From assembly GCA_002753135.1 (NCBI GenBank), contig PDZV01000032.1:1-46104 (forward strand): a DNA stretch of 46,104 bases, in the 5' to 3' direction. The stretch comes from Magnetococcales bacterium WMHbinv6 (GTDB taxonomy: Bacteria > Pseudomonadota > Magnetococcia > Magnetococcales > Magnetaquicoccaceae). This document shows positions 6,401-46,104 of the stretch, in pieces. Made by a program: the position numbers and the translations under genes. Under the pieces are notes generated by a model. That model made no database searches. It saw only the letters and a list, made by a program, of their open reading frames with translations, and was not told where the DNA came from. Numbering within the stretch: the stretch's first letter is position 1; each line of letters begins with the position of its first letter.

Positions 6401-7294
6401 GTGGCGCATTTTGACAGTCACATTTCTACCGGAGAGGCCAGAGAGCTTCTTAATCGTTTGGAATTACTTACCCTTTACCATGACGATTGGTTGTCAGCCT
6501 TCATTCGGGCCATTGTCTGTGATGAGCCGTTGGATGCCGACTATTTTTCGGAAGATGCCCACCTGACCTGTCGCTTTGGTCAATGGTTGGATCAGGAAAT
6601 TCATGAATCATTACGACAGACAGCGATTGTCAGTGATATTCGTTTGATTCATCGCAGCATGCACCGTGCTTATCGTAACCTGTTTCTGGTCTGGCAACAA
6701 AATCGGCGTCTTTCTGCCCTCGAATACGATGAAGCCAATGTAAAAAAGACTGCGTTTCAGTTGTCGGTCAGCACCTTGCAATTCATGATCTATGATTATC
6801 TGTTTCAGGTGGATCCGCTGACCAAAACCTTGAACCGGACCAAATTGCTTTCCACTTTGGAACGGGAACGGAATCGCATTTCCGAGACCGGAGAGCAGAG
6901 CGTGATCGTGATGGTGGATATTGATTATTTCAAAAAGATCAATGATACCTATGGTCATGTGGTCGGGGATACGGTATTGGTGCAGGTGGCGTTGTTTTTA
7001 TCCTCTTCGTTGCGTCCGATGGATATTACCTTTCGTTACGGCGGCGAAGAGTTTCTCGTTTATCTCCCCGGAGCCGGAGAAAAAGAGGCAGTTGCCATAT
7101 TGGAACGGATTCGCACCAGTCTGGTGGAAAACCGCATCATGATCGATGCCGGACGGGAGATTCATATCAGCGCCTCCTTTGGTGCCACGTTATTGGATCC
7201 GACGGCAGAGATTGCCTTTTCCATCGAAAAGGCCGATCGGGCGCTCTATAAAGCCAAACAGATGGGACGCAATCGGGTGGTTTGGCTGGATTAG
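6401..7294 (+). CDS. dgcZ: Zinc-sensing diguanylate cyclase (CZB-GGDEF, DgcZ-like)
   Basis: Makes cyclic di-GMP from two GTP. The N-terminal CZB domain has His27, Cys57 (in CRFGQW), His84 and His88. This spacing is identical to the zinc ligands His22, Cys52, His79 and His83 of E. coli DgcZ, and the length (297 residues) is also the same class. The C-terminal GGDEF domain has the active-site signature GGEEF near residues 211-215, with an RPMD (RxxD) inhibitory site five residues upstream, so product feedback is expected. The start is GTG with AGGAG 6 bp upstream. In DgcZ, bound zinc inhibits the enzyme, so zinc- or redox-dependent c-di-GMP control is the likely role here. Confidence 0.93.
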   Translation: MAHFDSHISTGEARELLNRLELLTLYHDDWLSAFIRAIVCDEPLDADYFSEDAHLTCRFGQWLDQEIHESLRQTAIVSDIRLIHRSMHRAYRNLFLVWQQNRRLSALEYDEANVKKTAFQLSVSTLQFMIYDYLFQVDPLTKTLNRTKLLSTLERERNRISETGEQSVIVMVDIDYFKKINDTYGHVVGDTVLVQVALFLSSSLRPMDITFRYGGEEFLVYLPGAGEKEAVAILERIRTSLVENRIMIDAGREIHISASFGATLLDPTAEIAFSIEKADRALYKAKQMGRNRVVWLD

Positions 7295-7349: not shown

Positions 7350-7394
7350 TTCTGCCATCGGAAGCCAGTTCTTCCGATGGCAGAAAAATTTTCA
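7350..7394 (+). terminator. Probable terminator after the diguanylate cyclase gene
   Basis: Perfect 15-bp stem (7350-7364 with 7371-7385) with a 6-nt CCAGTT loop, followed by a short AAATTTT tract. The weak T-run makes it a less typical terminator than the one at 6253, but the stem is very stable and placed 55 bp after the stop codon. Confidence 0.65.
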
Positions 7395-7426
7395 GGGTAT
7401 ACAGCACACGATGGTTGACCAACCGA

Positions 7427-7740
7427 CGCTTAGGAGTCTGGCAAAAATAACTTGGGCATCTTGCTTGTCTTTTTCTCCTCCTGCGTCGTTGCAAAAACGT
7501 TTACATACTAGGGCGTGTTGACATTTGAGGCTCGGTGGCCTTCAGACAAGGCGCGGGGAGGCGAGCAGCGCAGCATACACGGTCGTATGTGAGCAGCGGA
7601 GCCTCCCCGCAACGCAGGATCAAGGCCTCCGAGGCCAAATGTCAACACGCCCTAAAAGTATGCGCACGTTTTTGCGTCTGGCAGGAGGAGCAAAATCCGG
7701 CGCAATCTGCACAAGTTATTTTCGCCAGGCTCCTTAAGCG
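7427..7740. repeat. Snap-back inverted repeat element (about 314 bp)
   Basis: The two halves are imperfect reverse complements over the whole length. The outer ends pair CGCTTAGGAGTCTGGC (from 7427) with the complement of GCCAGGCTCCTTAAGCG (ending 7740). Inner shared blocks include AAAATAACTTG, CTCCTCCTGC and GCAAAAACGT. The central 146 bp (7509-7654) is bounded by TAGGGCGTGTTGACATTTG and its exact complement. No transposase is encoded. This is the layout of a non-autonomous MITE-like or foldback element. Its right end supplies the last codons and stop of the metallophosphoesterase gene at 7734. Copy number elsewhere cannot be judged from one window. Confidence 0.75.
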
Positions 7741-8897
7741 GCGATCGGCATGGACTTCCCTTTACCCGTGCGGGATGTCTCTGGATATAGATCCTTGTTT
7801 CGTGTACCGATTTGTTTGCGGAGTTGTTTGCGCAAGGCTTTGACGCTGCCAGCCTGTCGCAAAATGTGCGGATTGATGAAGAGAGTATCGCCCTGCTGAC
7901 CCAGCAACATGCCGCCCCAACCGCATTGCCGGATGCGGTTGTCGTTGTTGACAAAACGGATTCCGGGAACTTCTTCAGGGAGTTCCTGATCATTTTGTAC
8001 GTCAGCGATGGGTTTGTGACCATGGATGACGGTACGAATACCCAACTCACGGAGAATGGCGGCAGTTTGCGCACCGCGCAGCTGACCGTTATAGGATTTC
8101 AGGGAATAATAATATTTCGGGCTTTTTATGTCGCCGATCAGGCGCATGCTGTGCGTTTCCCGAAACAGGGGAAAGTTGCCTGCAAAGAGCAGTTTATGTA
8201 ATCGGCTGTTCAGTTCGTGGCGCGGAATGCGTTCCCGTTGCAGCTGTTTGAGGATCATCAGCAGATCCAGGGTCGGATAGCCATGCAGGAACAGATACTC
8301 CTGGTCGATATGCAGCAGGGACTGGCGACGGATGAACGCCAGATCATCCGGGGTCAGTGCGGTACGCAATCCCTTGTCAGCCATCTGTAAAATCGCTAAT
8401 TCATGATTGCCGTTGAGCAGGAGCAGGCGGCAGGTGGGTGGTGCGGTCTCCTGCAGGCGTTTGAACCCGTCCAGAATGTAGGGGTTGGGATCCCATTTGT
8501 TGAGCCAGTCGCCGGTATGGATGACCTGGATATGGCGCAGTTCTGGAATCCAGGTGCCGTTCTGGTCGCAGAGACCGGCCAGCCAGAGGGTTTGCATGAC
8601 GGTACGCAGATCGTTATCGGTATCGGAGAGTATCAGTGTCCAGCGGTACGATTCTGGCATGGATTCTGCTTGCGCGACGATCTCTTCCGTGACAACGGGC
8701 AATGCCTCGGTCGCAAGGGGTGCGCTTGGTGCTGGTGGGGGTTGCTCCTCATCTTGCGGCGGGGAAGGTTTCTGCCAGAGTTGCTGCAGGGCGTCCTGAA
8801 AGCCCATTCGGATTCGTTCCCAGATGGTGCTGTTGTGCCATTCACCCTGCCAGGGCAGGGTAAAATCCGTTAATCCGGGTGCCATTGAAGCCAGCAT
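7734..8897 (-). CDS. PPP-type metallophosphoesterase, paralog 1
   Basis: Calcineurin-like phosphoesterase, probably a protein or nucleotide phosphatase. Motifs in order: SDTDND (about residue 90, in place of GDxHG), HTGDWLN (about 128, for GDxxDRG), NGNHE (about 160), LHGYP (about 204) and IHGHKP (about 291). The start is set to the ATG at 8897 because a perfect AAGGAGGT lies 5 bp upstream; the frame stays open 28 codons further but without a good SD. The N-terminal about 80 residues are Pro/Gln-rich and acidic, unlike the neighbour paralog. It is divergent from paralog 2 (9098). Its C-terminal codons lie in the inverted repeat element. Metal ligand His in motif I is replaced by Asp. Substrate is unknown. 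Confidence 0.82.
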   Translation of the reverse strand: MLASMAPGLTDFTLPWQGEWHNSTIWERIRMGFQDALQQLWQKPSPPQDEEQPPPAPSAPLATEALPVVTEEIVAQAESMPESYRWTLILSDTDNDLRTVMQTLWLAGLCDQNGTWIPELRHIQVIHTGDWLNKWDPNPYILDGFKRLQETAPPTCRLLLLNGNHELAILQMADKGLRTALTPDDLAFIRRQSLLHIDQEYLFLHGYPTLDLLMILKQLQRERIPRHELNSRLHKLLFAGNFPLFRETHSMRLIGDIKSPKYYYSLKSYNGQLRGAQTAAILRELGIRTVIHGHKPIADVQNDQELPEEVPGIRFVNNDNRIRQCGWGGMLLGQQGDTLFINPHILRQAGSVKALRKQLRKQIGTRNKDLYPETSRTGKGKSMPIAA

Positions 8898-9097
8898 GGT
8901 AACCTCCTTCGTTTTGACGCCTGGCGACGCAGCGTGGGATTCCATAACAGGAATGACCGACGCAACGTAATTGTGCATCATGTTGATTTTTCTTTTTTAA
9001 TTTTTTTGTATTGTCACGTTTGGCGTGTTCGCCTTGTGTCTGTTGCAGCAAGTTGCGTGCCGTCAACGGTTGTGATCAGCAAATGGGAAGCGCGCTT
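8898..9097. promoter_or_regulatory. Divergent control region between the two phosphoesterase genes
   Basis: 200-bp spacer between divergent paralogs with an AT-rich core (8980-9015, mostly T runs). Promoters for both genes must lie here, but I cannot assign -35/-10 pairs with confidence. Confidence 0.4.
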
Positions 9098-44925: not shown

Positions 44926-44965
44926 GTCAACTCCTGCATCAGATATTCCAGAAAGATACGCACTA

Positions 44966-46103
44966 CTTATTCCATTTCTAAATCATTAATGCTATAATGT
45001 GCGCATCATTCATCTGCTGCTATAGGTGCGCACATGGCGAGAACCGCAAGTGGAATCAAGGTATTGGAGCAGGCCAAAACGTGTTTGGCCAAGGCCAAGA
45101 CGGTGGGAGAATTGCGACAGGCCCAGGCTGTTGTCTTGCCGCTTGAATTTGGCTTGTCGATACCGCAAACGGCACAAGCTTTGGGGGTTTCAACGAGATG
45201 GGCGTGCCAATTACGGACACGATTCATCAAGGAAGGTGGGGTACCGTCGCCGGTCGGTGAAGGACGTGGCGGCAGACGACGAGAAAACATGACTCGCGAG
45301 GCAGAAGCGGAATTTCTGTTGCCATTTTTTGAAAAAGCAAAGGACGGCGGTATCTTGGTCGTTGGGGAAATCAAATTGGCCTTGGATGAACGTCTCGGCC
45401 GCAAGGTTGCCCTGGCTTCTGCGTATAACCTGCTGCACCGTCATGGGTGGCGCAAACTCGCCCCTGACAAACGTCACCCACAGTCCGACCCCGTGGCGCA
45501 AGAGGAGTGGAAAAAAACTACCAAGAAACCATTGCCCGCATTGATCAGGAGTGGTCGGGAGAAGGAACCATCCGACTGATGTTCATGGATGAAGCACGTT
45601 TTGGGCGCATTTCCGACACCCGATCTTGCTGGTGTCCAAAACCGTTCCGGCCTGTTTGCCAAGCTATGCTGACACATCAGTACACCTATGCCTATGGCGC
45701 AGTATCGATCAAGGACGGCGAGTTTGACAGCCTCATGCTTCCATACGTCAATGGAGCGTGTACGCAACTCTTCCTTGACGAGGTGGCTCGACGACACCCG
45801 ATGGATCGGATTGTCATGGTCATGGATGGTGCAGGATGGCATAAGAATCAATCGCTTGTTCCTCCAGATAACATGCGCTTGTTGTTTCTCCCGCCCTATG
45901 CTCCTGAGCTCAACCCGGTTGAGCATGTGTGGGATGAACTGCGTGAGAAATGGTTCCATAACAGGGTTTTTGAGAGTCTCGAAGCACTTGAGAGACACCT
46001 GGAATCAGCACTCCTTGCCCTGGAAAATGATCGTGACCGTATCAGATCAATCACGGCATGGCCGTGGATAGTTAATGCACTTTTGATTTAGAAATGGAAT
46101 AAG
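44966..46103 (+). mobile_element. IS630-family (Tc1/mariner-like) element
   Basis: Terminal inverted repeats CTTATTCCATTTCTAAATCA are identical at both ends (from 44966, and as complement ending 46103). A TA precedes the left end (44964-44965), as expected for TA-targeting IS630 elements. The last base of the window (46104) is the T of the presumed second TA. About 1138 bp, with one transposase read through a frameshift. Confidence 0.9.
45034..46091 (+). CDS. IS630 transposase, two frames joined by a -1 shift
   Basis: Frame 1 (45034-45579) has the N-terminal HTH part (LSIPQTAQALGVSTRWACQL). Frame 2 (from about 45507 to 46091) has the DDE catalytic part: LMFMDEARFGR, VMVMDGAGWHKN and LPPYAPELNPVEHVWDEL. 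A run of seven A residues at 45511-45517 lets the ribosome slip back one base, joining WKK to NYQETIARIDQEW. The joined protein would be about 350 residues, normal for IS630. AGGTG lies 5 bp before the ATG. Programmed frameshifting is known in IS630 elements; decay by mutation is the alternative. Confidence 0.85.
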
Positions 46104-46104
46104 T

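Follow-up and report, generated by a model that had tools for sequence, protein, structure and literature searches.

Two nested foldback elements, rather than one palindrome, occupy positions 7430-7736 of the window (the whole 46,104-nucleotide stretch of contig PDZV01000032.1 that was analysed), between a GGDEF diguanylate cyclase gene (6401-7294, plus strand) and a calcineurin-like phosphoesterase gene (7734-8981, minus strand) of the host. We put the probability of the whole explanation at about 85%: the two would be nested non-autonomous foldback transposons that have a structured core in common, with the inner one moved by an IS5-family transposase and with insertion at a stop codon.

The outer element, which was delimited by its genomic copies and whose core was located with a covariance model, extends from 7433 to 7733 on the minus strand with ends GGAGTC...GGCTCC. 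A TTA stands on either side of it (7430-7432 on the left and 7734-7736 on the right), a TNA-type target duplication. The inner element (7511-7652, plus strand) is 142 bp long, carries the ends GGGCGTGTTGACATTTG, referred to as type A, and is located in the loop of the outer element with a TA on either side (7509-7510 and 7653-7654), at a point where empty outer copies have a single TA. Its structured core spans 7541-7625 on the plus strand and corresponds to positions 1-85 of the covariance models R1 and R2 described below, while the core of the outer element runs 5' to 3' on the minus strand and is interrupted by the inner insert. The outer arms comprise 33 nt and are 85% complementary, the inner arms 19 nt (TA included) and are 100% complementary. 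Subtracting the inner element and one TA from the outer element leaves 157 bp, the length of most other outer copies.

An earlier note on this DNA had described a single imperfect palindrome of 314 bp. The palindrome is real, in that its arms are complementary, and it resolves into these two elements; the RNA folding that was proposed as a check yielded -187.5 kcal/mol, compared with -104.1 ± 5.6 kcal/mol for 100 dinucleotide shuffles (z = -14.9). The palindrome was also said to carry no gene, and according to the list of open reading frames no frame of at least 120 aa lies wholly within it; a 140-aa frame (7652-8074, minus strand) overlaps both the right-hand part of the palindrome and the phosphoesterase gene. 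Just 3' of the cyclase gene, at 7350-7385, a perfect 15-bp inverted repeat with a 6-nt loop is a likely terminator.

The organism's own genome (G000, a 3.84-Mb draft of 80 contigs) was searched with the 314-bp palindrome, and two distinct sets of matches were obtained, namely outer copies and, elsewhere, inner-type copies. There are about 16 other outer copies, and none of the 16 listed contains the inner element, so that they represent paralogous empty sites. Their left and right halves meet, overlapping by about 3 bp, at the insertion point of the window copy. Across this point the sequence of many of the empty copies is CATACTAAAAGTATG or a variant close to it, where the window reads CATAC, TA, the inner element, TA and AAAGTATG. 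The inner-type matches amount to 27 rows, one being the element of the window, one a bare end in contig C12 and 25 further copies, of which some are fragmentary; they fall into two subtypes with the ends GGGCGTGTTGACATTTG (A) and GGGCCTGTTCTCATTCG (B). No match to the inner element was found in plasmid and phage collections, nor was its two-ended pattern found in viral contigs. The bare end in C12 is 16 bases long, lies between hscA-like (DnaK-type) and ferredoxin genes at contig position 7210-7225 (L077, G000:C12:5210-9225) and forms the TAG stop codon of the hscA-like gene. It was considered as an insertion sequence and rejected; it may be what is left of a lost element.

The cyclase and phosphoesterase genes are also adjacent in the congeners G006, G005, G002 and G001, while no syntenic match was found in G003 and G004. 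Both elements are absent from the orthologous site in all four congeners with the gene pair, the interval in G002 including a run of N, and the distance between the two stop codons is about 100 bp or less in G006 compared with 439 bp in the window. The right TTA of the outer element is the TAA stop codon of the phosphoesterase gene (7734-7736, minus strand), as is evident from the open reading frame list and the congener comparison. The phosphoesterase ends in IAA, MAA or LAA in the window and the four congeners. Since this C-terminus is conserved in the four element-free congeners, the element sits at the native gene end and no codons were gained or lost. As for the proposal that the palindrome donates the stop codon of the phosphoesterase, the stop codon is the flanking TTA of the outer element, and the element adds no codons to the gene. 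In the earlier note a MITE-like mobile element had been suspected, and a single-copy sequence lacking empty sites was named as evidence against mobility. We found many copies, paralogous as well as syntenic empty sites, and an IS5 partner with the ends of the inner element, all of which argue for mobility; in its essentials the earlier reading is borne out.

Target duplications, another check proposed in that note, were found only in part. The outer element reads TTA/TTA in the window, and identical TNA triplets are present on both sides of 10 of the 20 outer copies (listed in 21 rows, with a second reading of L054 left uncounted). Among the 64 inner-type copies for which both ends were found, 33 are flanked by TA/TA, 17 by TA together with CA (or TG), 3 by CA/TG on both sides and 11 by other bases, so that many inner flanks are imperfect. 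Of the 33 TA/TA copies, 30 are in a YTAR target, and 20 of the 64 copies depart from TA/TA by T to C only (e.g., L005, L067 and L244). This excess of T-to-C differences may reflect a change that removes a TAG stop codon, or else the element may have entered between Y and R with no duplication. The sole empty allele available at base level is the nested site, where the two readings, TA duplication and no duplication, coincide; in the one orthologous pair aligned for a CA..TG copy, the intergenic sequences have diverged too far to show whether there was a duplication.

A scan of 84,980 genomes with TAGGGCGTGTTGACATTTG returned 55 stretches from Magnetococcales, Thiosymbion, Fluoribacter, Alishewanella, Poribacteria and others, many of which are foldbacks of 145-270 bp. 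In two of the 55 contigs with the 19-base end (L191 and L208, both Poribacteria), an 812-bp insertion sequence encloses an IS5-family transposase that matches NF033580 at 1e-77 and 3e-77, respectively. Matches to the Poribacteria transposase are present in 26 of 61 relatives. Terminal repeats of the type GGGC(G/C)TGTT were present in 7 of the 30 transposase loci fetched from relatives, and they match the inner types A (L213, L215, L216, L239 and L240), B (L241) and C (L226). The type C end, GGGCCTGTTCACAAATG, is also found on foldbacks in the genomes G030 and G025. No IS5 transposase match was obtained in the organism's own draft genome or in G018, despite 32 exact copies of the inner end in the latter; draft assemblies can lose multicopy insertion sequences. 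Searches with PF13358 and PF01609 in four genomes yielded few transposases, none with matching ends, and no insertion sequence with the GGAGCC-type ends of the outer element was found in 17 transposase loci or in the 30 IS5 loci.

The inner element is short and non-coding and has terminal inverted repeats, dispersed copies and empty sites; judged by its sequence, its assignment as an IS5-family MITE is well supported, with ends that are the same as those of IS5 copies in Magnetococcales relatives and Poribacteria. The outer element has copies, empty sites and TNA flanks and is a MITE by anatomy. We agree with the previous statement that the palindrome is not tied to any insertion sequence in the window, where only an IS630 copy is seen, at the window's end, with ends unlike those of either foldback. 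This IS630-family copy (44965-46104) has a transposase domain in a 194-aa frame and 21-bp terminal repeats, ACTTATTCCATTTCTAAATCA, which also flank a fragment in contig C26 of the same genome.

Inner-type elements are enriched at gene ends. Twelve of 24 lie in the TA of a TAA or TAG that terminates an open reading frame of at least 120 codons, compared with 51 of 1516 TA sites (P = 1e-11). For this comparison empty sites were rebuilt by joining the flanks, and the TA sites of the same flanks served as controls. The sample consisted of the 24 TA/TA copies with at least 600 bp of flank on each side, 40 of the 64 copies having been excluded for flank length or letters. When the controls were limited to TA sites outside long frames or at stop codons, the excess persisted (12 of 19 vs. 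51 of 270, P = 6e-5). The frames in both counts are open frames rather than called genes, among which a few spurious ones are expected, and the controls are equally affected. Outer copies likewise abut the stop codon of a frame of more than 200 codons in the window and at four other loci (L010, L018, L152 and L153). Since inner-type ends all begin with GGG, insertion at TA in a TAA or TAG codon rebuilds TAG, and gene-end insertion therefore costs little; the first bases of the element itself thus provide a simple route of harmless insertion. The excess could be due either to a preference of the transposase or to selection sparing such copies.

One structured core is common to the inner element, the outer element and other foldbacks, which between them have at least six kinds of ends; in it the motifs follow in the order CAAGGCG, a variable stem, GCATAC..GTATGTGAGC, a second variable stem and CAACGCC. 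When 25 of the 35 inner-type elements found, representing types A, B and C, are aligned, the unpaired motifs prove to be conserved and the paired parts variable. Between types A and B, motifs 1 and 2 are 98 and 93% identical, compared with 53 and 64% for the stems, 49 and 31% for the inner arms, and 63 and 70% for the end arms. On the minus strand, the outer family has its motifs in the same order as the inner-type elements. A sequence-only profile of the inner cores missed the outer family at E 0.01, while the outer-family profile finds two inner-type foldbacks of G018 (L091, 9e-5; L078, 5e-4). Covariance model R1, built from 26 inner cores alone, matches 9 of 13 outer elements and 8 foldbacks of G018; all of its 18 matches in 170 kb fall within elements, and one complete G018 foldback, in L099, was missed.

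The stems covary strongly. In the outer alignment, which was made with MAFFT and whose structure was predicted from the same alignment, 71 changes on both sides of a pair were counted, compared with 25 ± 3.7 after shuffling. The mixed alignment of 29 cores (A4), which was fitted to the structure and is favoured in such a count, displays 163 both-side changes vs. 48 ± 5.8, with none of 500 shuffles reaching 163 and all slid controls far lower.

The core is widespread. Matches to R1 are present in 15 of 48 genomes of the order Magnetococcales, at up to 59 places in one of them, and the core carries further end types in these relatives (GAGCCTGTTGCAGA, AACCTCTCACAAAATGA, AGCCTGTTGAAAAAATCGAT and AGGGTCTGTCAC). 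With the broadened model R2, at E 1e-6 or better (the E-values of both models are rough), 90 of 398 Pseudomonadota genomes and 41 of 212 genera were positive; 17 of the 90 genomes belong to the order itself and 73 lie outside it. Reading 59 loci by eye revealed many more end types, e.g., TAGGCTCTGTACGAAAA, GAACCTGTTTACGATCT, GAGGGTGTTTACAAAC and GCAGGC(C/T)GTTGAAAAA; automatic arm extension over-ran the ends in many distant rows, and the end types there are those read by eye. The core was also found in Alishewanella agri, one of eight genomes reached through the loci, and on plasmids of Pseudomonas amygdali, P. veronii and a Halomonas sp., with no annotated feature under the match. As a measure of specificity, R2 gave four matches at E up to 10 in 427 kb of 55 contigs, namely two Alishewanella foldbacks and matches at 0.01 and 3.1.

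No Rfam family matched the window above its gathering score, and none matched positions 7380-7780 at E up to 1 or the loci L006, L018, L288, L290 and L291. In one locus, a match to Rfam RF02228 (sX9; L324 479-554) overlaps a weak R2 match (L324 444-529, E 1e-3). Since a scan of 19 other loci at E up to 0.5 gave no sX9 match on the core, the core is not filed under sX9. The overlap suggests that some of the sequences annotated as sX9 may be related to the core, and a review lists sX9 as one of the sRNAs annotated most frequently (PMC9029176).

We infer that the outer element arrived first, by insertion at TTA, which on the opposite strand is the TAA stop codon of the phosphoesterase gene, with duplication of a TNA triplet, and that the inner element would have inserted later at the TA in the apical loop of the outer one (CATACTA...). 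In both cases a transposase acting in trans would bind the ends. For the inner element an IS5-family enzyme is well supported by the common ends, while the outer element was probably moved by another DDE transposase. Insertion at a gene end would put the hairpin onto the 3' end of the message. The core is kept while ends and stems change, most likely, in our view, because of the hairpin as such, which would serve either mobilisation or a harmless or more stable transcript. Function in mobilisation, function in transcripts and absence of any role are nevertheless weighted about equally. The model strand folds better than its complement in all 22 outer and in 20 of 25 inner sequences, and the mixed alignment has 49 G-U pairs vs. 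17 A-C mismatches. Both the strand bias and the excess of G-U pairs would suit an RNA, although RNA energy rules had been used to choose the structure. With respect to the gene that it abuts, the core is in the same orientation in four cases, opposite in four and undetermined in eight, and this even split gives no sign of a strand-specific RNA role.

As for why one core is found between so many ends, a module that rides on any available transposase, with its ends exchanged and the core selected, be it selfish or host-serving, comes close to an even bet in our estimate. In some cases bulged core hairpins with different terminal repeats lie side by side or nested within one genome. A second explanation invokes shared ancestry only, the core being the functionless middle of an old IS5-derived MITE whose ends drifted with the transposases and whose arms were homogenised. 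Ends A, B and C indeed track three IS5 lineages, and palindrome arms can be homogenised by gene conversion or hairpin repair, which itself yields covariation. However, arm homogenisation leaves the conserved bulges and loops unexplained, as well as the motifs in the 73 genomes outside the order, and the unpaired motifs of types A and B (93-98% identical) are far better conserved than the stems (53-64%) and inner arms (31-49%). We regard ancestry alone as rather unlikely.

Equally doubtful is a hairpin that serves the host, as an RNA or DNA structure, in the 3' untranslated region, as a message stabiliser, an RNase III site or a terminator, and that was spread by transposases and kept by the host. 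The precise placement at stop codons and the better folding of the model strand (22/22 outer, 20/25 inner) would fit such a function, for which YPAL/RU-2 of Yersinia offers a precedent (PMC2229807), but an orientation bias is absent in the eight scorable cases and the congeners do without the element at the orthologous site. Mobilisation of the HUH type (REP/RAYT or IS200/IS605-like) through the hairpin and without target duplication appears very improbable. The hairpin anatomy and the copies without a perfect duplication are compatible with it, and in TA/TA copies a no-duplication Y|R reading is indistinguishable from a TA duplication. The terminal repeats, however, are those of DDE-type IS5 elements, 33 of 64 copies read TA/TA, and the size and ends of the elements are unlike those of REP/BIME, with a REP of 20-40 nt and a tyrosine transposase.

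The usual definition of a MITE relies on its ends, which are borrowed from a single insertion sequence and enclose an arbitrary middle. The mode of life of the present elements is that of bacterial MITEs, and nested insertion itself is ordinary. A core conserved independently of the transposase ends is unusual: here it is the middle, with its covarying stems, that is conserved, in elements with many end types from across a phylum. The literature searched, which was partial and included few subscription journals, contained no description of a core common to foldbacks with different ends. If confirmed, the core would allow a direct test of whether bacterial foldbacks persist because of their ends or because of their hairpin, and intergenic DNA of this abundant class could be annotated with a covariance model.

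Known systems are compared here as described in the cited papers. The nearest by mechanism is MITEPsy1 / ISPsy2 (given as 'IS5?') of Pseudomonas syringae, a short foldback with IS5-type ends that was moved in vivo in trans and targets CTAG or YTAA; it is 100 bp long, has a reported 4-bp duplication and has reported homologues in P. stutzeri and Marinobacter (PMC3189936). By description, its ends differ from those of the inner element, and the P. amygdali plasmid element that carries the core has other ends. Nearest by placement and hairpin, again by description only, are the YPAL/RU-2 elements of Yersinia, intergenic palindromes of about 168 bp with empty sites and a proposed effect on upstream transcripts (PMC2229807, PMC2267715). 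Unlike the inner element, they have no terminal TA, and their duplications measure 3-26 bp (PMC2229807, PMC2267715). ERIC, NEMIS/Correia and RUP are small foldbacks with terminal TA, and RUP is tied to an IS630 transposase through common ends (PMC2229807); these are other families, the ends of the present inner element being of the IS5 type. In Coxiella, QMITE2 is a palindromic MITE whose stem is conserved across alpha- and gammaproteobacteria and which inserts near gene ends (PMC5896051), but it differs from the elements described here in its direct repeats of 7-9 bp and in its ends (PMC10969869).

Two minor observations concern the arrangement of other copies. One outer copy (L022/L107, G000:C33:31288) is without its left end and lies beside an IS630 transposase fragment. 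Foldbacks of differing end types or kinds also stand end to end, with the TA at the junction common to both or nearly so, in L099 and L097 of G018 and in L062 (G000:C39) and L006 (G000:C22) of the organism's own genome.
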